Source: Chloroflexota bacterium
GTDB lineage: Bacteria; Chloroflexota; Dehalococcoidia; Lucifugimonadales; Australimonadaceae
Direction: 5' to 3'
Length of the DNA stretch: 43,196 nucleotides
Assembly (NCBI GenBank): GCA_028874795.1
Contig: JAPPHT010000088.1
Span: forward strand, 3,905 to 47,100
In this document: positions 5,122 through 36,528 of the stretch, in pieces
How positions within the stretch are numbered: position 1 is the stretch's first letter
Layout of the letters: the number at the start of each line of letters is the position of its first letter
The notes under the pieces: model-generated
Database searches by the model: none
Seen by the model: only the letters and a program-made list of their open reading frames with translations
Told to the model about the DNA's origin: nothing
Made by a program: the position numbers and the translations under genes

Positions 5122-6876
<1,755 letters not shown>

Positions 6877-7412
6877 GTCGCGCCTCTCCGTTTACAGGAG
6901 TCTTCGAGCAGTCATGGGGCAGGCGCAAGTGTATGGAGGGGCGGTTGGAGTGGCAAGTGGTGGTTCGACAGGCTCACCATGAGCGGGCAGCCACCCTCAC
7001 CCCCACCCCTCTCCCAGAGCGCGAGGGGAGTCGGGTGTCCTGTTCTCCTGCCGCTCAGGTTCACCACCATTCCCGCGTCAAGTGCGGGAATGGCTCTAAC
7101 CCTCCCCCATCGAGGGGAAGGGATCAGGCAGGGTTGCGAGGTTCCTGCTCTCCGCGCGCTGAAGCGCGAGAACGACGGGACAAGGTGTGGGGGCGTTCGC
7201 AAGGGCGGTCTCCGGTCGTGGGGGTGCGTGCACTCGGGAGACTACCAGCCCTCAGATTACACAGGCGTGACGTTCCAGCCGGTTCTGATGACGTTTCGCT
7301 GACATCAGGGCAGTCCTTCAAAGCCAAGTACCAGACTCGTCACGAATCGGCAGTTTCATGCACCACAAACGAGGTTCGCGTCTACTAGAATCGGCGGACT
7401 TTGGGAGGCGGC
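6877..7412. repeat. Divergent intergenic region: repeats plus probable promoter segment
   Basis: Repeats occupy about 6990-7190: a CCCTCTCCC-type palindrome near 7008-7028, ATTCCCGC...GCGGGAAT at about 7068-7091, and GTTCCTGCTC...GAGAACGACGGG near 7141-7179. The remaining 200 bases (7200-7400) are lower in G+C and repeat-free. They probably hold the promoter of the acyltransferase gene. A possible -10, TAGAAT, lies at 7386-7391, but I see no convincing -35. Nothing there looks like an RNA gene. Confidence 0.6.
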
Positions 7413-9221
7413 ATGACGAACGCTGAACAGGCAACCGGCAGCATCGAGCGGCGGCACGATCTGGACGCGCTGCGGGCGTTCGCGATGCTGCTGGGCATCG
7501 TGCTGCACGGGGCGCTGGCGTTCATCCCCGGCGCGTGGGTGGTCAGCGATGCGTCGGTCGAGGGAGAGGGAACGCCGTACGCCGTCCTGGTGGCGGCGAT
7601 CCACGGGTTCCGGATGCCGGTCTTCTTCCTGATGAGCGGATTCTTCACGGCGATGCTGTGGCGGCAGCGCGGGCTGCAGGCGCTGGTGACCCACCGGGCG
7701 CGGCGGGTCCTGTTGCCGCTGGTTCTCGCGATGATCGTCGTGATTCCGCTGACGTGGGCCGCGTGGGGCTACGCGGAGAACGCGTCCAAGGCTGAGGACG
7801 CCAGTGCGGCCGAGACGGAGACCGTAGCGGAGGACGACGTGTGGAGGGCCGCGGCGCGGGGCGACGTGGCCGCGCTGGAGCGCCACGCGGCAGAGGGCGC
7901 GCCGGTGGACGTTCCCGACCCAGTCCTGGGCACGACGCCACTGGCGTGGGCGGCATTGCACGGTCACGCGCATGCGGCAGAGTGGCTGCTCGACAACGGC
8001 GCCGGGGTACACACGCTCAACGGCGACGGGAGCACGGCGCTCCACTCGGCGGCGTTCATGGGCCGAGCGGAGGTCGTGCGGTTGATGCTGGAGCGCGGCG
8101 CGGACCCCCACGCCAGGCACCCGAACGGCGCCCTTCCGCTCCACAGCAGCCTCGCGGATCCCGGGACGACGGCGTACTACGTGGGCCTGCTCGGGCTGTC
8201 GTACGAGCAGGCGGCGCTGGACGCGGGACGCGCGGAGGTGGTGCAACTGCTGACCGAGGCGATGGAGCGTCCGAGAGAGGCGGAAACCGGCGCCCGGACG
8301 GAGGCGGACGAGGAAGCTGACGCTACGGCGGCAGAGGCGGAGGCGGCGGGCGGCACGGCGCCTTACCGAAGCGACCCGCACGCGGACGTGGACGAGGGCA
8401 GCGGTCTGCTGGTGCCGTGGTATTGGGAGGCGCTGTACTGGTATCAATGGGGCGGGCTGTTCACCTACGACGTCTTCAGTCACCTCTGGTTCCTCTGGTA
8501 CCTCGTCTGGCTGGTGGGGGCCTTCGCCCTGATCGTGTGGGTCGCGTCACGGCTGGGCCTCAGCCTGTCCTGGCTGCCGGACCGGCTGGTGGTGACGCCT
8601 GCGCTCTACCTGTGGGCGGTGCCGGTGACGATGGCGACGCAGTACTTCATGGGCGTGGAAGGCAACTACGCGGAGTTCGGAGCGGACACGTTCACGGGGC
8701 TCCTCCCCGCGCCGCACGTGCTGGTCTACTACGCGGTCTTCTTCGCGTTCGGGGCAGTTTACTTCTCCCGTAACGAGGGCGGAGCGCGCATCGGACGCTG
8801 GTGGCAGGCGACGCTGCCGCTCGCGCTGGTCGTGTTGCTGGCGGGCCTCGTGCTGACGTTCCCCGAGGACGGCGGCACGGCGGAGGACGGTGCGCGCTGG
8901 GGGTCGCTGTTCTTCCAGGCTGCCTTCGCCTGGATGATGGCGCTGGGGCTGATGGGGCTCTTCCGGTCGGTGCTCGGAGCGGGGAACGCGCGCGTGCGCT
9001 ACCTGTCGGACGCCTCGTACTGGCTCTACCTGATGCACCTGCCGCTCATCATCGCGCTGCAGGGGTTGTCCTTCGAGTGGGCGCTGCCCGCGGTCGTCAA
9101 GCTGGTGCTACTGATCGCAGTGACGACGGTGGTGCTGCTGGTCGTCTACGAGTGGGGCGTGCGCTACACGCCGGTGGGGACACTGCTGAATGGGCGCCGC
9201 AGGAGGGCGGGCGCCGGTTAG
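7413..9221 (+). CDS. Acyltransferase-3 family membrane protein with inserted ankyrin repeats
   Basis: 602 residues from ATG 7413, which has a GGGAGG Shine-Dalgarno 4 nt upstream; an in-frame TTG at 7401 overlaps that site. Residues about 15-45 carry the acyltransferase-3/OpgC signature R-x-DLDALRAFAMLLGIVLHG, with the family His in helix 1. Helix 2 (MPVFFLMSGFF) and helix 3 follow. Residues about 141-285 are soluble and contain two clear ankyrin repeats (TPLAWAALHGHAHAAEWLL and TALHSAAFMGRAEVVRLML) plus degenerate flanking ones. An acidic Ala/Glu linker runs to about 335, then the remaining helices resume (from about 352). The enzyme should transfer an acyl group onto a sugar or lipid at the membrane; acceptor unknown. 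The ankyrin insert, in the loop after helix 3, is the odd feature. It stands alone. Confidence 0.88.
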   Translation: MTNAEQATGSIERRHDLDALRAFAMLLGIVLHGALAFIPGAWVVSDASVEGEGTPYAVLVAAIHGFRMPVFFLMSGFFTAMLWRQRGLQALVTHRARRVLLPLVLAMIVVIPLTWAAWGYAENASKAEDASAAETETVAEDDVWRAAARGDVAALERHAAEGAPVDVPDPVLGTTPLAWAALHGHAHAAEWLLDNGAGVHTLNGDGSTALHSAAFMGRAEVVRLMLERGADPHARHPNGALPLHSSLADPGTTAYYVGLLGLSYEQAALDAGRAEVVQLLTEAMERPREAETGARTEADEEADATAAEAEAAGGTAPYRSDPHADVDEGSGLLVPWYWEALYWYQWGGLFTYDVFSHLWFLWYLVWLVGAFALIVWVASRLGLSLSWLPDRLVVTPALYLWAVPVTMATQYFMGVEGNYAEFGADTFTGLLPAPHVLVYYAVFFAFGAVYFSRNEGGARIGRWWQATLPLALVVLLAGLVLTFPEDGGTAEDGARWGSLFFQAAFAWMMALGLMGLFRSVLGAGNARVRYLSDASYWLYLMHLPLIIALQGLSFEWALPAVVKLVLLIAVTTVVLLVVYEWGVRYTPVGTLLNGRRRRAGAG

Positions 9222-20764: not shown

Positions 20765-21751
20765 CTAGGAGGCGAGTGAGAGGGCGTCGCAGTCGCGGGG
20801 GTTGATGTCCGGGCGGAGCGAGTTGAAGACGAGGAAGAGGAATGTGCCGTCAGGTGAACGCTCGCCGTATTCGACCTCGACTGCGAGAGACGGCTCGCAC
20901 CAGTGCGAGAAGAGGCTGACGCTGGGCTCGCGGGTGAAGGGGCAGCGGTCGGTGTGCAGCCGGGAGAGCATCTCGTGGAGCAGGCGCTGGTCGCCCCGAG
21001 CGGTGCCCGCTCCTGCTGCGCCGGTGAACCGGAACCGTCCGTCCTCGAAGACGCCCAGGAGGAGCGAGTCGAACGGACGCTTGCTGCCGCCGAAGGTGTA
21101 GCCGCCGACGACGAGGTTCATGGTGCGGGCGTTCTTCGTGGAGAGCCAGTGCCGGGAGCGCTTGCCGGGCTCGTAGAGGCTGTGCTTGTCCTTGGCGACG
21201 ATGCCGTGGAGGCCGAGCTGCCGGGCGGCGGCGTACATCGCAACGCCTTCACCTTCCTCGAAGTGGCAGACATGGACGGTGGCGTTGGGGCGCAGCGCGT
21301 CGTGGAGCCGGGCCTTGCGCTCGTAGAGCGGTAGGTTGAGGAGCGGACTGCCGTCCAGGTGGAGGATGTCGAACACCTCGTAGTTGACGGGGGTGCGGCG
21401 CCGGGCGCCCGGTCCACCGAGCCATCGCTCGACAACAGCGTAGCGCTGCGGGATGCCCTCATCGCTCAGCGCCACGAGCTCGCCGTCGAGCACGACGCTC
21501 GCATCCCCGGCCGCAGCGCGGAGCGCCTCTGCGACCTCGGGGAACGCGGCCGTGATGTCGGTCCCTCCGCGGGTGTGCATGCGCACCTCGCCGTCACCCA
21601 CGACGGAGATGGCGCGGATGCCCTCCCACTTGATCTCATAGAGGCGGTCGGGCGCGTCGGTCGGTTCGGGGGAGGGAGTGGGCACCATCGGTTCGACGAG
21701 GCCAAGCGCGAGCGCGGAGCGGTCAGATGCAGCGTGCGGGCTCGTTGTCAC
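20765..21751 (-). CDS. ATP-dependent DNA ligase (LigD ligase-domain type), divergent motifs
   Basis: 328 residues, the size of a stand-alone LigD ligase domain or LigC; there is no polymerase or phosphoesterase domain. The adenylation Lys41 lies in YEIKWEG (usual K-x-D-G; here Glu43). LDGELVAL (88-95), YEVFDILHLDG (124-134) and a C-terminal OB domain (VVGGYTF..., then LAVEVEYGERSPDG and FNSLRPDINP) are recognisable. Two conserved positions are changed: motif IV reads HGIVAK with His182 for the usual Glu, and motif V reads WLSTK with Ser204 for the first Lys. Activity may be weakened, or compensated. It lies 4 nt after the Ku gene, the typical pair for bacterial non-homologous end joining. Confidence 0.88.
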   Translation of the reverse strand: MTTSPHAASDRSALALGLVEPMVPTPSPEPTDAPDRLYEIKWEGIRAISVVGDGEVRMHTRGGTDITAAFPEVAEALRAAAGDASVVLDGELVALSDEGIPQRYAVVERWLGGPGARRRTPVNYEVFDILHLDGSPLLNLPLYERKARLHDALRPNATVHVCHFEEGEGVAMYAAARQLGLHGIVAKDKHSLYEPGKRSRHWLSTKNARTMNLVVGGYTFGGSKRPFDSLLLGVFEDGRFRFTGAAGAGTARGDQRLLHEMLSRLHTDRCPFTREPSVSLFSHWCEPSLAVEVEYGERSPDGTFLFLVFNSLRPDINPRDCDALSLAS

Positions 21752-21755
21752 GGCG

Positions 21756-22589
21756 TCAGGACGCCTTCCTCGCCTTGCGTGCGGCTGTGGGTTCCTCCGC
21801 TTCGGCGGCGGGCCCCGTGGCGCGGGCCGCCTCGATGGAAGCCCGGAGGGCCTCCATGAGGTCGCGCACCTTGCCCTGCGGGGCCTCCGGCGCCGCGGAG
21901 ATGGGCGCGCCGGAGCCGAGCTTGGCCTCGATCACCTGCTGAAGTGCGTCGCGGTACTCGTCCCGGTACTCGGCGGGCTGGAACTCCCCGGTAAGCTGGT
22001 CGATGAGCACAACGGCCATCTGCAGCTCGGCGTCGCTCAGTTCGACATCGCCCGGCAGGTCGAGTTCGGCAGTGCCGCGTATCTCGTCCGGGTAGTACAT
22101 CGTCTCCATCATGAGGCCGTCCTCGTAGGGACGGATGAGGCAGAGATGCTCCTTGTTGCGGAGGGCGACCTTGGCGACGGCGACCCGGCTGGTGGCCTCC
22201 AGCGCCTTCTTCAGAAGGGCGAACGGCTTCACGCCCACGCTCTCCGGCTCTATGTAGTAGCTCTTCTCGTAGTGGACGGGGTCAATGGTCGCGATGTCCA
22301 CGAACCGGAGGATGTCGATGGTGTGCGTGGTCTTGAGTGGGAGGTTGTCGAAGTCCTCCGCCTCCATCACAAGGTACTCGTCGCGGGCGAATTCGAAGCC
22401 GCGGACGATCTCGCTGTACTCGACCTCTTCCTCGTGGTAGGGGCACCAGCGCTTCTGCTTGAGGCGCGTGTGGCAGGAGTCGTGGAGCTGGACGAAACTG
22501 ATGTCCTTGCTCTCGGTGGCGATGTACAGCTTCATCGGGATGGCGACCATCCCGAAACTTATCGCGCCCTTCCAGATCGCACGGGCCAT
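21756..22589 (-). CDS. ku: Ku-like DNA end-binding protein
   Basis: 277 residues from ATG 22589; a GTG 6 nt upstream is possible. The bacterial Ku core starts with the signature ARAIWKGAISFGMVAIPMKLY. It continues with QLHDSCHTRLKQKRWCP (the ring-forming HxxC...C region), TIDILRFVDIATIDPVHYEKSYY, and LYxP-type strands through RPYEDGLMMETMYYPDEIR. The end, about residues 245-277, is a lysine/alanine tail (EEPTAARKARKAS), the usual DNA- or partner-binding extension. Ku homodimers thread onto broken ends and recruit the ligase, encoded 4 nt downstream. First gene of the two-gene operon; an intergenic repeat block lies upstream. Confidence 0.95.
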   Translation of the reverse strand: MARAIWKGAISFGMVAIPMKLYIATESKDISFVQLHDSCHTRLKQKRWCPYHEEEVEYSEIVRGFEFARDEYLVMEAEDFDNLPLKTTHTIDILRFVDIATIDPVHYEKSYYIEPESVGVKPFALLKKALEATSRVAVAKVALRNKEHLCLIRPYEDGLMMETMYYPDEIRGTAELDLPGDVELSDAELQMAVVLIDQLTGEFQPAEYRDEYRDALQQVIEAKLGSGAPISAAPEAPQGKVRDLMEALRASIEAARATGPAAEAEEPTAARKARKAS

Positions 22590-22619
22590 GAGCACCCCCG
22601 AGAGTAGGGGCTAGTGTAG

Positions 22620-23882: not shown

Positions 23883-26800
23883 ATGAGAAGTTTGACCGCA
23901 AGGCCGACGCGGCCGCTGGTCGGTGACTCAGCACGTCAAGCCAGTCTCCTGCTCCTGATGTTGGCAGCGTTGGCAGGCTTCTTCCTGTTGCTCGAGTTCG
24001 TCGTCGCCCTGGTGTCCACGGGACCCAGGGACATACTGGCCGCCACATCCTCGCAGGAGAGGACGTTCGGCGTACCCAATGGAGTCGGACTGCTCCAGTT
24101 CCTGGTACTGCCCGTGTCCGTCGTCCTCGCATCGGCTGCACTGCTTGTGTCCGTCGGTTGGCCGCTGCGCAGGGCTTCCCTGCGGCCATCGTGGTCCCTC
24201 GCGCTGGGGATGCTGACTGCGACAGTCCTGATCGCTGCCGGAGCGTACCTGGCTTTCTCGGGGCTGCTGGGCAGCGCGGTCTCCTACGACGAGCACATGG
24301 TGCAACGCACCTACCTGGAATCGGAGAGCCTGGTCCTCCTGGCGGCATTCTTCCTGTCTGTCACGATCGCCGGGATACTCAACTGGAGACTGCTGGCGGT
24401 GTCTCTCGTGGTCTGGCTGGTCGCCGCGGGCGTCTTCGGTTTCCTGGACACCAAGCCCATCGACGGGCTGCTCCTGTTCCCCAGGACGCAGTTCCTGGAG
24501 GTGCCCGCCAGCTTTGCGGCGGTCGTGAAGGGCTTCCGGCAGACGGAGGAGGTATCGACCGGACAGCCTACGGGGTCAGCAACCACCACCGCCAGCACGC
24601 CCTCGGACACCTCCCTGCTGTCCGAAGTCACCGCGCTGCAGCTCCCTCCGCCGAGCAACGCGCCCGTGTTCCAGGTGACGGGCTCGGTCCATACCAGGTA
24701 TCTCAGGACGTCGACCGGCGACAGCTACAGTGACGGAACGTGGAGCCAGTCGGACCCGGCCACCGTCACGCTGGGGGAGAATACCCCTGTTCCCGATGCG
24801 CTGGGGTCGCTGTCCGGGCAGCTCCATCTGCCGACGGCAACTCCGCTTCACAAGTTCGCCGACCACATCGTGGTCTCGCCGATCGAAGGGACAGACACGC
24901 TCGCGGCGGGTGTGCTCCCGGTAGCCAGGAACCTGCAGAGCGTCAGCACGTCCGCTACGTACTTCCCGTTCAGCGAGACCCTTGCCGTCGATAGTCGTGT
25001 GCCCGGCTACCAGATGGAGTCGACTCTCCCACTGTTCGCGCTGGGACAGAAGATCGAAGCGCATCCGGTGGCGGACCAAACGTATCGGCAACTGCCTGAT
25101 GGACTGCCCCCGCGTGTCTATGAACTGGCGGAGCAGGTCGGGGGTGTCGCCTCCCCGTACCTGAAGGCCCGCCTGCTCCAGGTATACCTGCAGGAGGAGT
25201 ATCTCTACGGAGTCGCAGGCACGGAAGACGAGGCCCAGCCGCCCGCCGGCCAGGACCCGGTCGACTGGTTCTTGTTCGACCGCCGTGTGGGCACCAGCGG
25301 GAATTTCAGCAGCGCGTTCGTGGTGCTCGCGAGGGCGGCGGGAATCCCGGCCAGGGCTGTGTCCGGTTGGGTCGTGGCGAGACAGGAGGAGACGCAGACG
25401 GTCCATCGAAACCAGACCCACCAGTGGGCGGAGATCGCCCTGGACGGCCTGGGCTGGGTGACCATTGATCCCCTGCCCAGGGACGCCTTCACGGACGCCT
25501 ACGTGGACCACGCGCTGGTGGCCGCGCTCGACGAACTGGCCACCAGTTCGGCGCCGGAGGTCCGGGATGCGGTTGCCGGGCTGTGGAGCGGTCTGGACGA
25601 CCCGGACGCGCTGCGTCTGCTGTTCAAGGAGATAGACGCCGCTGAGGAAGCGAACGCCGTGCTTGCCGCGCAGACCGCCTTGGGCGTGCTGGCCCTCCAC
25701 TGGCCTATCGGAATCCTGCTGGTCCATGAAGACCCCCTCATGCGGGCTTCGGCGGCCTACGGCCTGGGGGTGCTGGCCGACGCCAAGGCGCTGAACGCGT
25801 TGATACAGGCCCTGGCTTCGGATGAGGACGCCCGGGTCAGGGTGGAAGCGGTCGATGCGCTGGCCATCCTGGGGAAGGGAAGGGCTGAGGAGTCGCTGCT
25901 GCGAGCGCTCGAAACAGACCCGGACGCGACCGTCCGGGAAGCCGCGGCCCGGGCGCTGGGCGCTCTGAAGACCGAGTGGACGGCGGACAGGATGGCGCCC
26001 GTTCTCTCCTCCGACGCTGTCCCGGAGGTGCGCGCAGCAGTGGCGCTGGCCTTGGGCGACATCAGGGAGAACGTTGCGCTGCTGCCGCTGCTCGACGCCC
26101 GGTCCGACGACGCATCGCCTGAGGTGAGGGCTGCCGCGGCTGAAGCCCTGGAAGAGTGGGACTATCCCGCACTGCTGGAGATCCTCCTCACAGCCGAGGA
26201 CCCACTCCAGAGGGCCGCGGCTGCCCGGCTCATTGGCGAGCGAAGGTACCCGGCAGCGTCACGCGACATGACGCCCGTCCTCAGTTCCGACCCCGCCCCA
26301 GTGGTCCGAGCAGAAGTGGCGCTGGCATTGGGGGAGATCAGGAACAGGGAAGCGCTGCTGCCACTGCTCGATGCCCGGTCCGACGACGAATCGGCTGACG
26401 TGAGGGCCGCGGCGGATGAGGCCCTGGACAGGTGGGACTTCGACGCACTGTTGTTGATCCTCGAGACCTCGACGGACCCCCTCCAGAGAGCTGCGGCTGT
26501 TCAGCTCATGGGGGAGCGAGGGTACTCCCACACCAGGGCGTTGGAGGCGTTGCTGCGAGCCCTGGCCACGGATGACTTCGCCCGGGTCAGGGCGGAGGCG
26601 GCCTTTGTGCTGGGGGAGATCGGGGACAGCGCGGCGCTGCGACCGCTGCTCGATGCCCGTTCCGACGACGGATCGGCTGAAGTCAGGGCCGAGGCAGTTG
26701 AGGCCCTGGCCAAATGGGACTTCTCTGCCCTGCTGTCGACCCTCGCGAACGCATCGGAGCCGGCCCAGCGGGCTGCTGCGGCCCAGCTCATCGGAGAGCG

Positions 26801-29800
26801 GGGATACGTCGAGGCGATACCCGCCTTGACCAGGGCCCTGGCCGACCCCGCTGAGGAAGTCCGCGACGCCGCACTGGAAGCCCTGGAAAGACTGGGCGCA
26901 GAAGTGACCAGACCGGACAGCGGCGAAGGCACCGACGGACAGGACGGCGACGGCGGCTCCGGACTACGGCTTTCGGCGGAGGACGTCGCCTCGCTCGCCT
27001 GGGCGAACGAAGCGACCCGCGATGCCGCGCTCAAAGCCCTGGAGGAACAGGGAGCCGAGGTAACGCGGTTGGAGAATGGCGGGGCGATCCTGAGGCAGGC
27101 CGATAGCGTTTTCTTTACCTTTGGAACGACGACGGGCCAGGGCGCAGAGTTGCCTCATATCCCGGTCATCGAAGTAACGGGGGCCGCCCACAGGGGCTAT
27201 CTGCGGTTGACTACGGGGGACGTCTACGAGAGCGGCGGCTGGAGGCAGTTGGACCCTGTAGGCATTCCCTACACGGCCGGAGCCGACGTTCCGGAAGAGG
27301 TGTGGGAGCGCTACACAGCCGCCTCAGGCGGGTTCGACGCCGTCCCCCCGGAAAGGCGGTCCTCCCAGTCGCTCTTCGGATTCCGGGATGAGGCGGTGCG
27401 CGTCGTTTCCGATCGCGTCCGAGTGCTCCCCGCCGGTCAACTGGACGAGTTGCCGATCGGCCTCATGCCCACCACGCCTGACCTGCAAGAGACGGATCTC
27501 GACGGGACCTACCATCCCTTCAGTGCCACCTTCTCCGCAGGGAGTCCGGTCACGGGCTACTCCTGGACGTCCCGCATCTCAACGTTCTCAGAGAGCCAGT
27601 ACAGAGCCGCGGCCGTCGTCACCGACCCCACCTACACGCAGTTGCCCGCGGACCTGCCCGCCCGCATCAGGGAGTTGGCGGAGCAGATCACCCAGTTCCA
27701 CGATTCTCCGTATGCCAAGGCGAAGGCGCTGGAGCGGTACCTCAGCACCCAACTCACCTACGGATTCGCCGACAGCGCCAGTCCCGCCGGACCGCCCGCG
27801 GGGCAGGACCCGGTGGACTGGTTCCTCTTCGACACCCGCCGAGGCACGTGCGGACAGTTCAGCAGCGCGTTCGTCCTCATGGCGCGCTCCGTGGGTATAC
27901 CTGCCAGGGTTGTCGCGGGATGGATGGCTGCGGCGACGCCCCGAACGCAGACGGTCTATACAGACCAGGCGCACCAGTGGGCGGAGGTCGCGTTGGAGGG
28001 TATCGGCTGGGTCCACTTCGAACCGACGGCCTCGGGCGGGGCGCCGTCTCGCGTGCTCGATGACACGACAGACGGTGCGGGCTCTGTGAGCGGCCCAGTC
28101 GACACGGCAACGAACATCACGCGGTGGCCTTCAGAGATCCGCCGCCAGACGCCGTTCGTGGTGGGCGGAACGGTGTTCACCGCAGGCGGACAGAACGTCA
28201 ACGGCATGACGGTCGAGATCTACATCAACGAGACGAAGGAGCACGGCGGCACGAAGATCGGGACGACCACGTCCCGCTCCGGCCGCTTCGAGGCAGAGGT
28301 GCAGCTCCCCGCGGGTATGGAGCTGGGCGGATACCAGCTCCTGGCCCGCGCGGTGGGGAACGACCGCTTCAATGAGTCCTGGAGCGACCCCGACATCAAG
28401 GTCTTCTCCGGGAACAGGATCGAGCTGAGCGGCCCCGCGGAGGTCGCGCTGAACGCGGCGGCCCTGTTCGAAGGAAGGCTTATCGAGGACGCTGGACAGG
28501 GAGTGGCCGGACGCGAGCTCGCAGTGACGTTCGATGGAAACGCGGCCCCGTCGGTGGTGACCGATGCGGTGGGCCGGTTCACCTTCTCCGGGACTTTCTC
28601 GCGCCTTGGACAGCACTGGGTGGAGGTGAAGATCCAGGGAGAGGAGTTCCTGCTGGACAACACGGCCCGCCTGGAGTTCGAGGTAGTCCGCCCGACGGAG
28701 GTTGAGATCCATGCACCTGCCTCCGTAGTGATAGGAGAGGAGTTCCTGGCGAGGGGACAACTGCGCGGGAGCGACGGGGTTGCGCTTCCGGGGAGACGTC
28801 TCGGCGTAAGGGTCGGCCGCGGCCCCGAACAGTCGGTCACCACGGACAGGGAAGGCTGGTTCGAGGTTGCCGGCACGGTATCGACGGAAGGTGAGTTCGT
28901 CGTCAGCGCCAGGTTCCGGGGCGAGGGGTCGGTGCTCGGTTCCAGCGGAACAGCCCGCTCTGCAGCAATGCACGCCGTAGAGCTGACACTGGAGGGGCCG
29001 CTCCGACTGGAGCGCGGTGAAGGAGCGACGTTCCAGGGCAGTGTTATGTCGGACACGTTCTCGCCCACCGACCAGGTCGAGTTGACCATAGAGGGCGCCG
29101 GAGACGGGTGGCGCGCCGCCGTGAACGTCGGTGAGGACGGGACGTTCGAATACGAGCATCCCTCCTTCGACCGCACAGGCGCACACACGCTTACGGTCCG
29201 CTTCGCCGGGGGAGAGTTCGTTGAAGCGGCATCGGCGGACCTCGCCTTCGAGGTGCTGGAGCCCACCGTCCTGATGCTCGACGGGCCCACGGTCGTACGC
29301 GACGGTGAGGGATTCCGGCTCACCGGAACGCTGCGTGAGCGTGGCGGGAGCCCGGTCCCGAGCGCCGCCGTGCAGGTCGTGAGTGGTGAGCCGGTCTCTC
29401 TGACGACCGACGCCGAGGGCAGGTTCGCCTGGGACGTCCAGGCGGCGTTCGAAGAGAGCGCCGCGCATGACCCGCACGAGTCCACGTTGAGCGTCGAGGT
29501 GGTATTCGAAGACACGGAGGAGCTGGGTCCCAGCCGCGCCACGCTGGACGTTGCAGTCGGGCTTCCGCGGATACTGGTGGAGCCGCTGCAACCGGTGGCG
29601 CGCGGCGGCGCGGCGGTCCTCCGAGGGACCGTCCTGCTGGGGACCTATCCCGTGCCCGGCACCGAACTGACCGCCGGTCCCGACGTAGTATTCAGGTCCA
29701 ACGACGTAGGCACGTTCATGCAGACGTATCCGGTGGCCGGGGACGAGCCACTGGGGACCGCCGAACTCGTGATTGCTGCCTCCGCGCTGGATGCCAGCGT

Positions 29801-30875
29801 AACAACGTCCCTCGTGGTCAAGTCCGCCGCCAACCTCATCGTGACCCCGGTCGGCAGGGTGCGCCCGGGGGGCACGACGTTGCTCCAGGCGACACTGCTG
29901 GACGACACCGGGACCGGGATGCCGCAGGCGGTCCTGCAGTCGAGCCGGGGCGTGGACGCCATCACGGACGAGTCCGGGACAGCGATGCTGGAGCTCGTTG
30001 TGCCGGGGACAGAAGCGCTGCCCGGCAGCTACCTGGAGTTCACCTACGCCGGGGACGACGTTCACACTCCGCTCAGCGTTTCGTATTTCTGGGAAGGCGC
30101 CATCACGCCGGCGGGATTCAACTGGCTCCTCTGGGTGGGGATACCCGGCCTCGTTGCAGTGGCGGCGGCCGCCGCCTACACAGGCAGGCGGCTCAGGTTG
30201 ACCCCGCTTGCGGCGCTCGCGCGCTGGAGGGGCGCGTCGCGAGGGCAGGTCCCGGCCCCTGAGGCAGTCGACGAGCGTGAAGGCGCCGAGGACGACGCAG
30301 GCCCGGCTCCCCAGCCGGTGCAACTGCGGGTCGCATTCCAGAAGGAGGCGGACCTGGCCGACGTCTGGGGGGTTGGCGAAGAGGTGAGCGTCACAGTGAA
30401 CGTGACCGCGGAGGGAGGGGCCCCCGTTGCCGGAGCCATCGTCGAGGTGTCGGTCGCCGGCGATGCCCCGCCGCAGCTCGCGGTCGCCGGCAGCGATGGG
30501 GCGTACACCTTCAGCTGGAGCGGCGCTGAACCCGGGGAGTACCCGGTGTCGGTGGAGTTCGCCGGCGATTACGACTACCTGCCATCCTCCGAATCGAGAA
30601 GCCTCCGGGTAGTGGACTTCCGCGAAGAGATCGTTCGCCTGTACGGCCTCTTCTGGGACTGGGCGAAGGAGAGGACCGACGGAGTGACGGAGCGCTCCAC
30701 GCCGCGAGAGGTGGAGTTCATCCTGGTGTCCCGTGGGCTCCCGATCCCCCAGAAGGCGCTCGATGAGCTCATCTCCCGGTTCGAGGAGGCGGACTACAGC
30801 GAGCATCCGATCGCGCGCCGACACTACGAGGCGATGTACCGGGCATGGAGCGCGGTGATGGAGGCTGAGCGATGA
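23883..30875 (+). CDS. Giant dual-transglutaminase / HEAT / beta-sandwich membrane protein (TgpA-like)
   Basis: 2330 residues. Order: five membrane helices (about 20-192); TgpA-type beta region and transglutaminase-like module 1 (about 255-535) with Ser472, His513 and Asp529, so the catalytic Cys is replaced; HEAT/PBS-lyase repeats (about 545-1006) with a 92-94-residue super-repeat; a second, homologous module (about 1085-1385) with Cys1323, His1364 and Glu1380; seven carboxypeptidase-regulatory or Ig-like domains (about 1416-2066); one helix (about 2079-2099); an eighth beta-sandwich; and a DUF4129-like end (about 2246-2330). Helix count puts modules 1, 2 and the HEAT array outside and DUF4129 inside. 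TgpA relatives have 650-750 residues and one module. First gene of the MoxR/DUF58 operon; probable surface protein-processing or cross-linking machine, by inference. Stop overlaps the next start (ATGA). Confidence 0.9.
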   Translation: MRSLTARPTRPLVGDSARQASLLLLMLAALAGFFLLLEFVVALVSTGPRDILAATSSQERTFGVPNGVGLLQFLVLPVSVVLASAALLVSVGWPLRRASLRPSWSLALGMLTATVLIAAGAYLAFSGLLGSAVSYDEHMVQRTYLESESLVLLAAFFLSVTIAGILNWRLLAVSLVVWLVAAGVFGFLDTKPIDGLLLFPRTQFLEVPASFAAVVKGFRQTEEVSTGQPTGSATTTASTPSDTSLLSEVTALQLPPPSNAPVFQVTGSVHTRYLRTSTGDSYSDGTWSQSDPATVTLGENTPVPDALGSLSGQLHLPTATPLHKFADHIVVSPIEGTDTLAAGVLPVARNLQSVSTSATYFPFSETLAVDSRVPGYQMESTLPLFALGQKIEAHPVADQTYRQLPDGLPPRVYELAEQVGGVASPYLKARLLQVYLQEEYLYGVAGTEDEAQPPAGQDPVDWFLFDRRVGTSGNFSSAFVVLARAAGIPARAVSGWVVARQEETQTVHRNQTHQWAEIALDGLGWVTIDPLPRDAFTDAYVDHALVAALDELATSSAPEVRDAVAGLWSGLDDPDALRLLFKEIDAAEEANAVLAAQTALGVLALHWPIGILLVHEDPLMRASAAYGLGVLADAKALNALIQALASDEDARVRVEAVDALAILGKGRAEESLLRALETDPDATVREAAARALGALKTEWTADRMAPVLSSDAVPEVRAAVALALGDIRENVALLPLLDARSDDASPEVRAAAAEALEEWDYPALLEILLTAEDPLQRAAAARLIGERRYPAASRDMTPVLSSDPAPVVRAEVALALGEIRNREALLPLLDARSDDESADVRAAADEALDRWDFDALLLILETSTDPLQRAAAVQLMGERGYSHTRALEALLRALATDDFARVRAEAAFVLGEIGDSAALRPLLDARSDDGSAEVRAEAVEALAKWDFSALLSTLANASEPAQRAAAAQLIGERGYVEAIPALTRALADPAEEVRDAALEALERLGAEVTRPDSGEGTDGQDGDGGSGLRLSAEDVASLAWANEATRDAALKALEEQGAEVTRLENGGAILRQADSVFFTFGTTTGQGAELPHIPVIEVTGAAHRGYLRLTTGDVYESGGWRQLDPVGIPYTAGADVPEEVWERYTAASGGFDAVPPERRSSQSLFGFRDEAVRVVSDRVRVLPAGQLDELPIGLMPTTPDLQETDLDGTYHPFSATFSAGSPVTGYSWTSRISTFSESQYRAAAVVTDPTYTQLPADLPARIRELAEQITQFHDSPYAKAKALERYLSTQLTYGFADSASPAGPPAGQDPVDWFLFDTRRGTCGQFSSAFVLMARSVGIPARVVAGWMAAATPRTQTVYTDQAHQWAEVALEGIGWVHFEPTASGGAPSRVLDDTTDGAGSVSGPVDTATNITRWPSEIRRQTPFVVGGTVFTAGGQNVNGMTVEIYINETKEHGGTKIGTTTSRSGRFEAEVQLPAGMELGGYQLLARAVGNDRFNESWSDPDIKVFSGNRIELSGPAEVALNAAALFEGRLIEDAGQGVAGRELAVTFDGNAAPSVVTDAVGRFTFSGTFSRLGQHWVEVKIQGEEFLLDNTARLEFEVVRPTEVEIHAPASVVIGEEFLARGQLRGSDGVALPGRRLGVRVGRGPEQSVTTDREGWFEVAGTVSTEGEFVVSARFRGEGSVLGSSGTARSAAMHAVELTLEGPLRLERGEGATFQGSVMSDTFSPTDQVELTIEGAGDGWRAAVNVGEDGTFEYEHPSFDRTGAHTLTVRFAGGEFVEAASADLAFEVLEPTVLMLDGPTVVRDGEGFRLTGTLRERGGSPVPSAAVQVVSGEPVSLTTDAEGRFAWDVQAAFEESAAHDPHESTLSVEVVFEDTEELGPSRATLDVAVGLPRILVEPLQPVARGGAAVLRGTVLLGTYPVPGTELTAGPDVVFRSNDVGTFMQTYPVAGDEPLGTAELVIAASALDASVTTSLVVKSAANLIVTPVGRVRPGGTTLLQATLLDDTGTGMPQAVLQSSRGVDAITDESGTAMLELVVPGTEALPGSYLEFTYAGDDVHTPLSVSYFWEGAITPAGFNWLLWVGIPGLVAVAAAAAYTGRRLRLTPLAALARWRGASRGQVPAPEAVDEREGAEDDAGPAPQPVQLRVAFQKEADLADVWGVGEEVSVTVNVTAEGGAPVAGAIVEVSVAGDAPPQLAVAGSDGAYTFSWSGAEPGEYPVSVEFAGDYDYLPSSESRSLRVVDFREEIVRLYGLFWDWAKERTDGVTERSTPREVEFILVSRGLPIPQKALDELISRFEEADYSEHPIARRHYEAMYRAWSAVMEAER

Positions 30876-33358
30876 GGAACGCCGCTTTCGCCCAGCGCCC
30901 GGCGCTGGCGGCCGCACTGCTGGCGGGCGGTGCGCTCGCGGCGCTTGTCCTGCTGTGGGGCGCCGACAGCCCGCTCTCCCAATTGCTGCGGCTGGACCTG
31001 AGCCTCCTGGCCCTGCCCGTAACGTTGTGCGGGGGCCTGCTGGCCTTGGGCAGGCTTGCCCTGTGGCTGCGCGGCACCGGGTTGGCGGAGCGCGTAACCC
31101 TCCGGATGCGGACGGGCAGGGAGGCGACGCGCGCCGTGCCTCTCGCAGCGGCGCTTCCTGTCGCCCATCGCGTGCTGACGGACCTCGGATGGACGGCGCT
31201 GGGGCTGGGACTACTGTCGTCCGCGTCAGCACTGCCGGGCGTGGTATCCCGTCACCCGTGGGCACCGGACATCGCCTCCCTTGCGCCCTATCTGCGTGGT
31301 TTCGACTCGTTCGCGGCGTGGGGCGTCCTGCTCCTGGCCCCGTTCATCGCCGCTCGAGCGGTTGCGGAGGCGCGGCCGCACGTGGGGACGGTCGTCGGCT
31401 TCCCGCGGGCCCACCTGGCCGCTTTCGTCGTTGCCTATGCACTGCTGGGGGTCGACGGCGCGCTCTCCTCCGCCTTTGCTCTGGGCGGGGCCTGGGCGTT
31501 GGCGGCCTTTGGCCTCGCGTTGGGGATATCCTATGCGGCCTCGGCCATCCGGCGGGCATCGGCGGCTGCGCCGCCCGACCGCCTGCCGCTCCTTCGCGCG
31601 GCGCTCCACGTGGCCGAGGCCGGGTGGCTCGTTGCGTTGTGGGTAGCAATCACGGCCCTGGCACTCGCTGCGGAGAGCGCGGCCGCGGGTGGTGGCGCAG
31701 TGGGCCCCGGCTCCGTGGACGCATCCTACGCGGCAGTGCTCTACTCCCTGTCGGTTGTGCAGGTCCTGGCTGTGCTACTCCCCTTTGCACTGGTCCACTA
31801 CGCGGGAGTGCTCCGGCCCGGCGTTGCCCGCATCCTGGGCACTCCCATCGGGCACCTCGCATCGCTGGCGGTCGTCTACGTTCTGTTCTCCGGCAGCGGT
31901 GTGCTGTCGACTGCATTTGCAGTCGACGTCTCCGGGATGCTCGCTGCGCTCATCGCTGCGACGGTCCTTTCCTACGCGGCGACGGTGCTGCGCAACGTGG
32001 CGAAGGTAGAGGTTCCGGAGCGTTATGCGCTGCTGACGGCGAACGGATCGAGGGCGCTGAGCGCGCTGGCCGTAGCCGCAGCCCTCGCGCTGGTTGTCGG
32101 GACTGCACTCGCGCACCTTCCTGTCGCCAACGCGGTGCTGCTGGACCGCCCGGGAACGAGAGACCTCGGTGAGGACTTCCTGCCTTTCCTCGGAGGGTTC
32201 TACGAAGCCCGGTACTCCATCGCCTGGTTGTCGTTCACGGCAGCCGCGATGCTCCTCCTGCCGCGCGTACTGAGTGGGCAGTCCCTCCTTCGCTACCGGG
32301 CCATCCTGTCTGCGGTGAGCTACTTTGCCGTGGGATGTTTCGCCTGGCTCACGGCATCCGGCCTGTCCGCGTTCGGACACGGCTTCACCTTTGGCGGCGC
32401 CATCACCGCGGCGGGCATGTTCTCCCTGGCGCTGACCCGGTTGGCGCCGTACGCCTCCACCTCCTCCAACCCCGCCGTGGCCGACGTCGCAGGGTGGCTC
32501 GCAGCATCCCAGGTCCGAGGCTTCGTGATCGGGGCAGCCGTTGCCTTCTATGTGCTGCTGCTCCGGCCCGTCGTCTACGAGATGCTATGGCTCGCTTCTC
32601 TCTACGAGTACATCGCGCTCCTGGTCCTGCTGCTGGCGGTGCTCATGAACGTGGTCAACAGGCTGCGCGTCGTCGCAAACACGCCCGAGACCACGGAGCC
32701 CGGGTGGGCCGACTGGTCCCATCACCGGCAGGTCCTCGAAAGCAAGGCAGACCCGCGGGCCGCGTTGACCGACGTGATGCGGCAGCGGTTCGTGGACCGC
32801 GGCGATTGGAAGCCCCTGTGGGTGTACCTGCTGGGGCTGCTCTATCGAAGCGAGGCTTCCCTGGACGCCATGGTGGCAGTCTGCCGTTCCCTTCGCCGCG
32901 GGGCGGTCACGCCTCTGGCGTGGAACGTCCTCGGCCGGAACCGCAGGGCGTCCACGAGAACAGCCGTCCTGGAACATGCCCTGGACACGGCGGGCTGGGC
33001 GCTGGCCTCTTCGGCGCCGCAGCTCGAACGCGTAAGTGAAGACGACGTGCGGAGAACGGGCGCGTTATACATCGACAGGGGGACGGATCCGGAGCCGCTG
33101 GCCGTGGCCCTTATCGTCGCCCACTGCCAGAGGGGTGATGATCCTCAGGAGGCCGTTGACCGCTGGTTCTCACTGCTGGACACGCCGGACCCGTTCATGC
33201 AGTGGCTTACCCGACGGTGGGGCAGGCCAGACACCAGGACCAGAACCCCGCTGCGTCGCCTGGGCCTGATCAATGAGGCGGTCGCCTCGCTCTTCGAGGA
33301 CGCGGAACCTGCCGGGTCAGGCAACCCGGGCTCAAACTACGAGAGGAGCCGCCCGTGA
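30872..33358 (+). CDS. Large polytopic membrane protein with soluble C-terminal domain, unknown
   Basis: 828 residues; ATG overlaps the stop of the giant gene by 4 nt. About 14-16 hydrophobic helices fill residues 1-600; none carries a transporter or enzyme motif I recognise. The C-terminal 210 or so residues are soluble and helical (KADPRAALTDVMRQRFVDRG, LEHALDTAGWALASSAPQ, DPQEAVDRWFSLLDTPDPF), perhaps an armadillo/TPR-like bundle. This tail includes the conserved-looking QWLTRRWGRPDTRTR. The strict coupling to the giant protein, and position before moxR and the DUF58 gene, argue that it is a membrane partner of that system. A translocation or scaffold role is only inference. It ends in a short disordered tail 58 nt before a strong ribosome-binding site. 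Confidence 0.75.
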   Translation: MRNAAFAQRPALAAALLAGGALAALVLLWGADSPLSQLLRLDLSLLALPVTLCGGLLALGRLALWLRGTGLAERVTLRMRTGREATRAVPLAAALPVAHRVLTDLGWTALGLGLLSSASALPGVVSRHPWAPDIASLAPYLRGFDSFAAWGVLLLAPFIAARAVAEARPHVGTVVGFPRAHLAAFVVAYALLGVDGALSSAFALGGAWALAAFGLALGISYAASAIRRASAAAPPDRLPLLRAALHVAEAGWLVALWVAITALALAAESAAAGGGAVGPGSVDASYAAVLYSLSVVQVLAVLLPFALVHYAGVLRPGVARILGTPIGHLASLAVVYVLFSGSGVLSTAFAVDVSGMLAALIAATVLSYAATVLRNVAKVEVPERYALLTANGSRALSALAVAAALALVVGTALAHLPVANAVLLDRPGTRDLGEDFLPFLGGFYEARYSIAWLSFTAAAMLLLPRVLSGQSLLRYRAILSAVSYFAVGCFAWLTASGLSAFGHGFTFGGAITAAGMFSLALTRLAPYASTSSNPAVADVAGWLAASQVRGFVIGAAVAFYVLLLRPVVYEMLWLASLYEYIALLVLLLAVLMNVVNRLRVVANTPETTEPGWADWSHHRQVLESKADPRAALTDVMRQRFVDRGDWKPLWVYLLGLLYRSEASLDAMVAVCRSLRRGAVTPLAWNVLGRNRRASTRTAVLEHALDTAGWALASSAPQLERVSEDDVRRTGALYIDRGTDPEPLAVALIVAHCQRGDDPQEAVDRWFSLLDTPDPFMQWLTRRWGRPDTRTRTPLRRLGLINEAVASLFEDAEPAGSGNPGSNYERSRP

Positions 33359-33416: not shown

Positions 33417-33470
33417 ATGCTGTTGAGAACGATGCTCATCGATGACGGGACGGTGCCCACCCATGAATGA
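33417..33470 (+). CDS. Putative 17-residue leader peptide coupled to moxR
   Basis: The frame reads MLLRTMLIDDGTVPTHE and stops. It starts 7 nt after TAAGGAGG, and its TGA overlaps the moxR start region (ATGAATGA at 33463-33470). MoxR itself has no Shine-Dalgarno at either candidate ATG (33442 or 33463), so its translation may depend on termination of this small frame. An annotation might merge the region into a longer MoxR. Codon content gives no strong test at this length. Alternatively, the site is a relic of an older start. Confidence 0.4.
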   Translation: MLLRTMLIDDGTVPTHE

Positions 33471-34437
33471 GAAAGAGCTGGACGAGGCCCGTCTATCCTG
33501 CGAGCAGATCATCGACCGCGTCGCCGAAGCCTTCGTCGGCAATCGCTTGCTGCTGCGTAAGCTCCTTGCGGCGGCGTTGGCGAACGGTCACGTGCTCTTT
33601 GAGGACTTCCCGGGGCTGGGGAAGACGCTCCTCGCCAAGGTCTTCGCGCGGGCGATCGGGGGAGACACCAAGCGCGTTCAGTTCACGCCGGACCTGCTCC
33701 CGTCTGACATCCTGGGGATGAACGTGTGGAGGCAGAAGGACTCGACATTCCAGATGATGCCGGGCCCCGTGTTCACCAACGTGCTTCTGGCCGACGAGAT
33801 CAACCGGGCCCCGCCGAAGACACAGTCCGCCCTCCTGGAAGCCATGGAGGAGCGCCAGGTCACGATCGACGGCGTTACGCTGCGCCTCGAGTTCCCCTTC
33901 GTGGTCATCGCAACGCAGAACCCCATCGAGCAGGAGGGCACGTATCCGCTTCCGGAAGCCCAGTTGGACCGCTTCCTCCTGAAACTCTCCGCCGGATATC
34001 CGGCCAACGCGGCACTGGAGAACGACATCCTGCTGAGACGCATCCACTGGCAGAAGGATGACCCCACCGCCGACATCGAGCCAGCGGTCGACGTGCGCCG
34101 CTTCGTGGAACTGCAACGGTTCGTGGAGACCGGCGTTTACACCGACCGGCTCATCGTGGACTACATCACGCAACTGGTCAGACTCTCCCGTGAACACGCA
34201 AGAGTGGCGGTTGGCGTGAGTCCGAGAGGAGGCCTGGCCCTGCTGAGGGCATCCCGGGCGATGGCCCTGATCCACGGCAGGGACTTCGTCGTTCCAGACG
34301 ACGTGAAGTTACTGGTCCCTGACGTGCTCGCCCATCGCATCATCCTGAACATAGAAGACACGCTGGAGGGCGTTCGAGGCAACCTGGTCGTCGAGGAGAT
34401 CCTGTCGCAGGTGCCCGTGCCCGGCGAGACCGTGTGA
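33463..34437 (+). CDS. MoxR-family AAA+ ATPase
   Basis: 324 residues from ATG 33463; ATG 33442 would add seven residues (MTGRCPP) that look non-native. Motifs are Walker A FEDFPGLGKTLLAK (about 47-60), the sensor/pore region LPSDILGMNVWR, Walker B LLADEINRAPPKTQ, sensor 1 IATQNPIEQEGTYPLPEAQLDRF and sensor 2 GVSPRGGLALLRA. This is the standard MoxR/RavA-like chaperone ATPase. Members act with DUF58 proteins and transglutaminase membrane proteins, as here, probably to activate or remodel a partner at the inner face of the membrane. The stop overlaps the GTG of the DUF58 gene. Translation is probably coupled to the leader peptide upstream. Confidence 0.94.
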   Translation: MNEKELDEARLSCEQIIDRVAEAFVGNRLLLRKLLAAALANGHVLFEDFPGLGKTLLAKVFARAIGGDTKRVQFTPDLLPSDILGMNVWRQKDSTFQMMPGPVFTNVLLADEINRAPPKTQSALLEAMEERQVTIDGVTLRLEFPFVVIATQNPIEQEGTYPLPEAQLDRFLLKLSAGYPANAALENDILLRRIHWQKDDPTADIEPAVDVRRFVELQRFVETGVYTDRLIVDYITQLVRLSREHARVAVGVSPRGGLALLRASRAMALIHGRDFVVPDDVKLLVPDVLAHRIILNIEDTLEGVRGNLVVEEILSQVPVPGETV

Positions 34438-35780
34438 GTTGTGACGACGTGAAGTACCAGCCGTCGCAATTGAGCTGGACCGCCATCTCCCTGGTTCTCC
34501 TGGTGGCGGGGCTCATCCTGGGCAACCTCGTCCTGCTGGCCGGGTCGGTCTTCGTCCTGGTCTCGGCCCTGCTGTCCACGGCCATCCCCCCGCCGTCGGG
34601 CATAGTCGTGACCCGGAGCCTGGCGAAGGTCGCGTGCTGGGTTGGGGACACCCTGACCGTGGAGCGGCGGCTGACGGCCCGGCATGGTACCGGCGCGATC
34701 TTCGTGCACGACGATCTTCCTCCGGAGGCGCGGGTGGTGAGCGGAAGCAACCTGCGCGTCGTGTGGAAATGGCCGGGGAGCAAGGACGCGGACATCTCAT
34801 ACCGTGTGCAGTTCTCCAAGCGGGGACAATTCACGCTGCGGGAAACGGGGTGGGAATCGCGGGCGCCGTTCGGTGTCGACCAGAGCGCGTCCGGTTCGTC
34901 CGGCCCCCCGTTCCAGGTTTCCGTGGTGCCCAGGATCCGCAGCATCACCCGCCTGAACGCGGTCCGTGGTGTGGCCAGGCACGGCCGCTACCTTGGCGAC
35001 CTCTCCAGGACAGGGGCGGCCACGGACGAATTCCGGGAGCTGCGGCCCTACCAGCCGGGCGACCCCTTCAAGCGCATCAACTGGAAGGCCAGCGCGCGGG
35101 GAGTCAGGGCGGACAACCTCCCGCTGGTGAACGACGTTGAGCCGGAGACGAAGAAGGGAGTCTGGATCTTCCTGGACATGGCGGACTACATGGACGTGGG
35201 CGTGCCGTTGTCCAATCCCTTGGAGAACACCGTGGAGGCGTCCGGCACGCTGGCGCAGTACTACCTCGCACAGGGGTCGACGCTCGGCGCCTATGCCTAC
35301 AACAGCTACGACGGCAGGGGTGAGTTGCTGACGCCAGAAGCAGGGAAACGCCAGTTCAACCGCCTCATCCAGATGCTGGCCGGCCTGAAGTCGGCCCCGC
35401 CCGAGGAAGACCTGCTGCTGGCGGTGGAACGATGCAAGAGCTTCCTCATCCGCCTGGAGCCGGCCGTCTACGTCATCACCCGGTTGGACGTTCACTACGA
35501 CAGGCCAGGGGAGGCGCTGGGCTCCTTCGACCGCTTCAAGACGGCGATCACACGCCTCGTGTCGCTGGGGACGCTCTCCGGCAGGAACAACCCCGTGAGA
35601 GTCGTACACGTGGACCCGCAGGAATCCCCTGAGACGTCGCAGGGACTGGGATTGACCAGATGGGAAACACGGTTGGTTGCCAGGGACCTTCGGGACGCAG
35701 GCGCGTCCGTCATCGAGTGGGAGCCCTCCCGGGAGGAGTTCACGTCGGTTCTGGTGCGGCATGTTGAAGCCTATCGGTAG
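34434..35780 (+). CDS. DUF58 domain-containing membrane protein
   Basis: 448 residues from GTG 34434, overlapping the moxR stop; GTG 34449 is an alternative. Two N-terminal helices (about 13-53, ending LLSTAIPPP) precede a beta-rich extracytoplasmic-like segment. The DUF58 signature then follows: EFRELRPYQPGDPFKRINW with K and R of the family and a VWA-like fold (VWIFLDMADYMDVGVPLSN...). In the VWA core the usual DxSxS metal site is replaced by D-M-A-D-Y, so metal binding is doubtful. DUF58 proteins are encoded directly after moxR in most genomes and are thought to be the ATPase partner. Complete length. The next gene starts inside its last 20 nt. Confidence 0.92.
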   Translation: MSCDDVKYQPSQLSWTAISLVLLVAGLILGNLVLLAGSVFVLVSALLSTAIPPPSGIVVTRSLAKVACWVGDTLTVERRLTARHGTGAIFVHDDLPPEARVVSGSNLRVVWKWPGSKDADISYRVQFSKRGQFTLRETGWESRAPFGVDQSASGSSGPPFQVSVVPRIRSITRLNAVRGVARHGRYLGDLSRTGAATDEFRELRPYQPGDPFKRINWKASARGVRADNLPLVNDVEPETKKGVWIFLDMADYMDVGVPLSNPLENTVEASGTLAQYYLAQGSTLGAYAYNSYDGRGELLTPEAGKRQFNRLIQMLAGLKSAPPEEDLLLAVERCKSFLIRLEPAVYVITRLDVHYDRPGEALGSFDRFKTAITRLVSLGTLSGRNNPVRVVHVDPQESPETSQGLGLTRWETRLVARDLRDAGASVIEWEPSREEFTSVLVRHVEAYR

Positions 35781-36528
35781 ACCGGACTGGCGCGACGGAG
35801 GCGCGAGGACCGCCGCAGCGGAGTCGGCGGTGCTGTCCGCCTTGTTGCTGCTCGCCGTCTACGTGCTCTGGGACATGGGCTTCTTGCTGAACGTGCGGGT
35901 GACTTCGTGGGTCGAGAGGGCAGACGGGCTGGTCCTGCACTTCGTCCCATGGCAGCCGGTCCTGGCGGTGGGTGTGGGTCTGGTGGCGTATTGGGCGCTT
36001 CTGGCCCTGGGCCGCGACCGCATCGCCTTCTGGCTGACGGCGTTCCCGGTTGCGGCCCCTCACGCGCTGGCGGCGTGGTCCCACAACCGCATCGGATGGC
36101 ACGAGCTGCTCGAGTTCCAGGAGGACCTCGTGGATGAGCGCTCCGTCTACGGGGACATGACGCTCTTCGTCCTGTGCCTGGTCGGCCTCGTTGTCCTGCA
36201 CCGCATCATCGGCATCAAGCGGCTGGAACGCCTGCTGCGGTTGCAGGGCGTGGACCCGGGGGAGAAGCGCGTCGTCATCCGGTACGAGAACCTCATGCTC
36301 ATCGGACTGATTGTAGCCGGGCTGCTGGTGGCTGGCCTGATGGTGATGGTTGCAGAGGTGTTGGGGAGGTACGACGGACTGCTGGATGGGTCGTCCCTGA
36401 CGATGGCGACGGTCGGAGGTGGAGCGGCCCTCCTGCTCGCCTTGACGCTCCTGCTCTGGTTCCGGGGCCGGCAGGATGGCCTGAATGAGGAAGGCGCGAT
36501 ACGCCCTGAAGCGACGGACGGGAGTTAG
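35761..36528 (+). CDS. Polytopic membrane protein, last gene of the MoxR operon
   Basis: 255 residues from ATG 35761, 20 nt inside the DUF58 gene. The frame is open further upstream, but that stretch would be an out-of-frame translation of the DUF58 C-terminus. About five or six helices are visible (SAVLSALLLLAVYVLWDMGF; PVLAVGVGLVAYWALLALG; MTLFVLCLVGLVVLHRIIG; LMLIGLIVAGLLVAGLMVMV; VGGGAALLLALTLLLWF). No recognised domain. Small membrane proteins of this sort often close MoxR-DUF58 operons. The acidic C-terminal tail is short. The 60 bases after it include the probable promoter of the LysR gene (TACTAT near 36546). Confidence 0.75.
   Translation: MLKPIGRPDWRDGGARTAAAESAVLSALLLLAVYVLWDMGFLLNVRVTSWVERADGLVLHFVPWQPVLAVGVGLVAYWALLALGRDRIAFWLTAFPVAAPHALAAWSHNRIGWHELLEFQEDLVDERSVYGDMTLFVLCLVGLVVLHRIIGIKRLERLLRLQGVDPGEKRVVIRYENLMLIGLIVAGLLVAGLMVMVAEVLGRYDGLLDGSSLTMATVGGGAALLLALTLLLWFRGRQDGLNEEGAIRPEATDGS

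Follow-up and report, generated by a model that had tools for sequence, protein, structure and literature searches.

The window analyzed here, a 43,196-nucleotide stretch of a Chloroflexota contig, contains a gene for a giant relative of the transglutaminase TgpA, and it raises the question of whether a protein with two transglutaminase modules works as two enzymes or as one. The gene lies on the plus strand at 23883-30875, where 2,330 codons run without an internal stop, as the first-pass annotation had it, and its GC3 is uniform throughout. With two modules and 2,330 aa, the protein departs from the usual TgpA form, which has a single module and about 700 aa.

Five N-terminal transmembrane (TM) helices, located by hydropathy and loop charges within residues 23 to 188 (23883-24482), are followed by module 1 (M1; residues 255 to 540; 24645-25502), a HEAT array of about 15 repeats (residues 541 to 1003; 25503-26891), a linker (26892-27143), and module 2 (M2; residues 1088 to 1390; 27144-28052). 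Seven macroglobulin/Ig-like beta-sandwich domains (28104-30086) then lead to a C-terminal TM helix (residues 2082 to 2100; 30126-30182; found by hydropathy, in the model, and by loop charges), an eighth beta domain predicted to be cytosolic (30372-30611; Pfam Big_3_5/CarboxypepD_reg), and a DUF4129 tail (30642-30848). This is the order that had been proposed from the sequence at first reading, and it was recovered by Pfam, hydropathy, and AF2 modeling. In Pfam, the protein matched Transglut_core twice (E = 1.5e-49), HEAT_2 (E = 7.9e-58), and CarboxypepD_reg, Big_1, and Big_3_5, and the tail searched alone matched DUF4129 (PF13559) at 1.8e-6, with 28.4 bits against a gathering score of 24.8. 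The PF11992 profile did not match the protein despite its five N-terminal hydrophobic segments, and NCBIfam returned only HEAT-type and AAA matches, far under the cut-offs. By loop charges, the N-terminus, the eighth beta domain, and DUF4129 lie on the inner side of the membrane and both modules, the HEAT array, and the other seven beta domains on the outer side, from which we infer an N-in topology with external modules and an internal tail.

AF2 models were built with the family alignment for M1 plus HEAT (mean pLDDT, 83.8) and for M2 plus the beta stalk (mean pLDDT, 76.9) separately. This structure prediction, for which the first-pass annotation had called, shows both modules to be of the TgpA type, with some 30 helices in the HEAT array and seven beta-sandwiches ahead of the last TM helix; the evidence for the eighth beta domain, past that helix, is from Pfam. 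Against the TgpA periplasmic domain (PDB 6g49), the M1 model scored Z = 23.7 over 254 residues (rmsd, 3.0) and the M2 model Z = 22.3 over 262 residues (rmsd, 3.2), the next matches of M2 being near Z = 12. Each module thus corresponds to a whole TgpA periplasmic domain, beyond the catalytic core alone. TgpA was also the sole strong sequence match among solved structures (E = 5e-20), and M1 and M2 are 43% identical over 271 aa. Since pLDDT is low at the HEAT-M1 junction, we make no claim of docking. Importins and alphaReps, which resemble the HEAT array, and complement proteins, which resemble the stalk, were generic fold matches and were dropped as functional clues. Three direct copies of about 279 nucleotides in the HEAT array (25992-26807; 66 to 78% identity) indicate that it grew partly by tandem duplication of three-repeat units.

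The giant gene heads a cassette on the plus strand. Its stop overlaps (ATGA) the start of a gene whose product has 828 aa and about 14 TM segments (TM828; 30872-33358), which matched no Pfam or NCBIfam model and is conserved in cassettes at about 28 to 86% identity. A MoxR AAA+ ATPase (33442-34437; PF07726, 6.4e-64) and a DUF58 protein (34434-35780; PF01882, 1.4e-12), both conserved in cassettes, come next, followed by a 262-aa membrane protein whose start codon is unsettled (35740-36528) and which is present in part of the cassettes. With two homologous modules and with MoxR and DUF58 downstream, the protein is indeed, as had been proposed, an enlarged relative of TgpA with an internal duplication, encoded in a MoxR-DUF58 operon. 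The set of giant gene, TM828, MoxR, and DUF58 is complete in eight other loci (L043, L044, L045, L038, L047, L048, L049, and L051). At L046, the contig stops within the membrane-protein gene, and L052 has MoxR and DUF58 downstream with no detectable match to a TM828-type protein. The genes flanking the window's cassette were not found beside it at the other loci compared. On the minus strand of the window (20765-22595), genes for an ATP-dependent DNA ligase and Ku lie side by side and form a bacterial nonhomologous end-joining (NHEJ) pair.

Elsewhere in the genome, a TgpA of the Cys type (740 aa) is encoded in a MoxR-DUF58-TgpA operon of its own, so the giant-gene cassette is a second, accessory system. 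Neither MurG nor a PBP transpeptidase was found in this 97% complete genome of a Dehalococcoidia-related bacterium, in which the controls were detected, in agreement with the unusual envelope suggested at first reading. Peptidoglycan genes are reported to be lacking in sponge SAR202 Chloroflexi (PMC6306507), with which the window genome agrees and of whose kind the organism would be, judging from its relatives.

We found related genes at ten loci on nine contigs of a contig database, plus L038 in genome G021; the scan used two short peptide patterns and would miss relatives without them. Most of the related genes head the same TM828-MoxR-DUF58 cassette; their module number ranges from one to three, and the HEAT array is present in some and absent from others. 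L047 and L048 have one module and no HEAT (1,334 to 1,360 aa), L051 has HEAT and one module, and L049 has HEAT and two active modules. The window and L043 have M1, HEAT, and one active module, and L044, L045, L046, and L038 have M1, HEAT, and two active modules. L052 (2407-9546) has two modules and no HEAT; its module 2 is separated from the Ig-like domains by a PD40 beta-propeller. The window M2 clusters with module 3 of L044 (support, 98/96), and the segment preceding it resembles the L044 linker between modules 2 and 3; the window protein thus probably derives from a three-module form whose middle module disappeared in the lineage leading to the window and L043. A module-profile match at E ≤ 1e-45 was present in 12 of 250 genomes of the order (Lucifugimonadales) and in only three of six genomes of the window's own genus, which makes the giant gene accessory and patchy. 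A phylum sample of 400 genomes yielded one further match at this threshold, to an 848-aa single-module frame. Two copies are interrupted: that in genome G004 by a scaffold gap, and L038 (6575-13939, minus strand) by one in-frame TAG, either real or an assembly error, at residue 403 of its three-module gene.

The active sites bear on the opening question. M2 has Cys1323, His1364, and Glu1380, whereas in M1 the alignment and codons place Ser472 (AGC; 25296-25298), within GTSGNF, at the position of the catalytic Cys, with His513 and Asp529 retained. The catalytic Cys is absent from all seven M1 that precede an active copy, being replaced by Ser in five (the window, L043, L045, L046, and L038), by Gly in L044, and by Ala in L052, while all seven retain His and Asp. 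Every other module of the giant-TgpA family retains Cys, His, and Asp/Glu in the alignment. The dN/dS ratios of M1 and M2 were 0.20 and 0.25 between the window and L043, and 0.19 and 0.24 between the window and L044, where synonymous changes are near saturation; they were about 0.2 in the M1, M2, beta, and tail regions alike. M1 is therefore maintained by purifying selection, of the same strength as that on M2, and is not decaying. It is probably a pseudoenzyme that kept its fold and lost its nucleophile, which would leave one active module and a pseudo-module instead of two enzymes. Of the two homologous transglutaminase modules originally described, then, the shared fold stands, but M1 as an enzyme probably does not.

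This loss seems to have recurred. Six of the M1 form one clade (support, 100/99), and the two modules of L052 are sisters in a core-domain tree (100/95; 84/89 in the first tree), which points to a separate duplication with an N-terminal copy again without Cys. The Cys was thus probably lost twice, with the placement of L052 resting on long branches. The first-pass annotation knew of no described protein with this domain order, and the literature searched, mostly without subscription papers and so weak evidence of novelty, likewise yielded no account of a TgpA with several modules or with a HEAT array. Every part is known, but that literature describes neither the combination nor the pseudo-module and its recurrence.

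We modestly favor a model in which the giant protein is an envelope enzyme that acts on surface proteins through M2, with M1 and HEAT as a noncatalytic substrate-binding or regulatory arm and the DUF4129 tail as a coupling element. A loop of about 1,880 residues would be anchored in the membrane at both ends, with the beta-sandwich stalk providing reach. M2, with its Cys-His-Glu, would be the catalyst, its most likely reaction being acyl transfer or hydrolysis. The likely substrates are surface proteins, because the genome has no sign of peptidoglycan synthesis. M1 and HEAT would bind a substrate or partner and position or restrain M2, and the cytosolic beta domain and DUF4129 tail would link the protein with the MoxR ATPase and its DUF58 partner. 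We infer all four elements, i.e., catalysis by M2, its substrate, the role of M1-HEAT, and the coupling to MoxR/DUF58. The inactive second domains of receptor phosphatases offer an analogy for the M1 arm. In yeast Cyk3, a transglutaminase domain that lacks Cys is regulatory and acts on chitin synthase (PMC4758748). HEAT arrays adjoin active modules without M1 in L049 and L051, and the single-module members have neither, which makes the arm dispensable within the family. A bolder version, unlikely in our estimation, would have peptidoglycan-less bacteria repeatedly duplicating TgpA into an active copy and an N-terminal pseudoenzyme that, with an extracytoplasmic HEAT array, picks out and presents surface-layer proteins for covalent cross-linking, as a protein-based substitute for cell-wall stitching.

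What M2 catalyzes admits an alternative. The transglutaminase-like superfamily includes proteases, and the chemistry of M2 is indistinguishable from sequence or fold, so that M2 may process surface proteins, as a cysteine protease or an amidase, instead of cross-linking them. The periplasmic domain of TgpA, the closest characterized relative, has transglutaminase activity (PMC3507681), however, and we regard the protease or amidase reading as possible but somewhat unlikely.

The substrate might also belong to an animal host, with the HEAT and Ig-like domains binding sponge proteins that M2 modifies. Sponge-symbiont genomes show an enrichment of HEAT families (PMC8163846), and the isolate names of several relatives appear to fit sponge metagenome projects. 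However, family members also occur in groundwater (L050) and in a presumed open-water isolate (L052), and the cassette resembles the cell-envelope type, which makes a host target quite unlikely.

M1 could instead be an active serine enzyme, in which Ser472 replaces Cys as the nucleophile alongside His513 and Asp529. Five of the seven M1 do have Ser with His and Asp retained, and Ser is also common at this position elsewhere in the order. Ordinary single-module TgpA proteins (about 830 to 870 aa, in MoxR-DUF58 operons) of many of its families have Ser for the catalytic Cys, in the motif Y-S-D/E-Y-F (examples are L012 to L034, L122 [6543-9020, minus strand], L123, L124, L125, and L126). A DNA pattern at the Cys position, which permitted Cys, Ser, Thr, Arg, and Trp, matched in 108 of the 250 genomes of the order, with Ser in 102 and Cys in 6; its flanking motif biases the copies seen, and it missed the Cys-type copy of the window's own genome. 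Both AGY and TCN serine codons occur among these proteins, suggesting that Ser itself is selected there and that they are possibly serine-type TgpA; MoxR and DUF58 adjoin them in all five loci checked. However, they lie apart from M1 in the tree, and we rejected them on this ground as the source of the M1 Ser. The M1 Ser codons are all AGC, a single change away from TGC, a codon for Cys, and the variation among Ser, Gly (in the close relative L044), and Ala (in L052) argues against a serine nucleophile in M1. A serine enzyme in M1 is thus decidedly improbable, and the pseudo-module remains our preferred reading. Elsewhere in the class, the TgpA-like proteins L104, L108, and L111 have Phe in place of the Cys and Trp in place of the His and form an apparently fully inactive group.

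The interrupted G004 and G021 copies notwithstanding, an assembly chimera, which relatives effectively exclude, or a decaying pseudogene has a negligible probability given the intact 2,457-aa, three-module gene of the same order on a 2.86-Mb chromosome-level record (L045), the intact genes in L044 and L046, the low dN/dS across regions, and the even GC3.

MoxR-DUF58-TgpA operons are widespread and poorly understood. Here one chain naturally pairs an active module with a probably dead one, and the single-module relatives can serve as controls, so that a division of labor becomes testable. In a genome where no peptidoglycan synthesis is detectable, the usual suspect drops out as substrate, which directs attention to cell-surface proteins. 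The repeated loss of the nucleophile in the TgpA-type domains of the order also raises the question of what role the fold has without its Cys.

Among known systems, the closest is TgpA of Pseudomonas aeruginosa (PA2873; PDB 6g49/6g4h), whose neighborhood is of the MoxR/DUF58 type and which shares with the giant protein N-terminal TM helices, one C-terminal TM helix, and a periplasmic module of the same fold. It lies in a predicted operon, PA2875-PA2872 (PMC3507681). At 688 aa, it has one module and lacks the HEAT array, beta stalk, pseudo-module, and cytosolic beta domain of the giant protein. Cyk3, like M1, has kept His and Asp and lost Cys, but it is eukaryotic and has no active copy in tandem. 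Macroglobulin/complement proteins share strings of MG/Ig-like beta-sandwiches with the stalk, a generic similarity only: the stalk shows weak MG2/MG4 matches and fold matches, with no thioester domain among its Pfam matches. The MoxR-vWA-beta-propeller ternary conflict systems have bpMoxR and a propeller partner, whereas the window's MoxR best matches AAA_3 (6e-64; bpMoxR, only 2e-7) and its cassette has no beta-propeller in Pfam. The canonical TgpA of the same genome (L041, G000 C17) also combines Transglut_core and DUF4129 next to MoxR and DUF58, but has one Cys module and no HEAT or Ig-like domains, and lies at a separate locus with a MoxR only 46% identical. L047 and L048 share the module, beta stalk, TM helix, cytosolic beta domain, DUF4129, and cassette with the giant protein, but lack M1 and HEAT and have extra N-terminal TM helices. 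The giant protein itself retains the TgpA-type traits, namely, the bundle of five TM helices, the TgpA fold, the Cys-His-Glu in M2, a C-terminal TM helix followed by DUF4129, and the MoxR/DUF58 neighbors.
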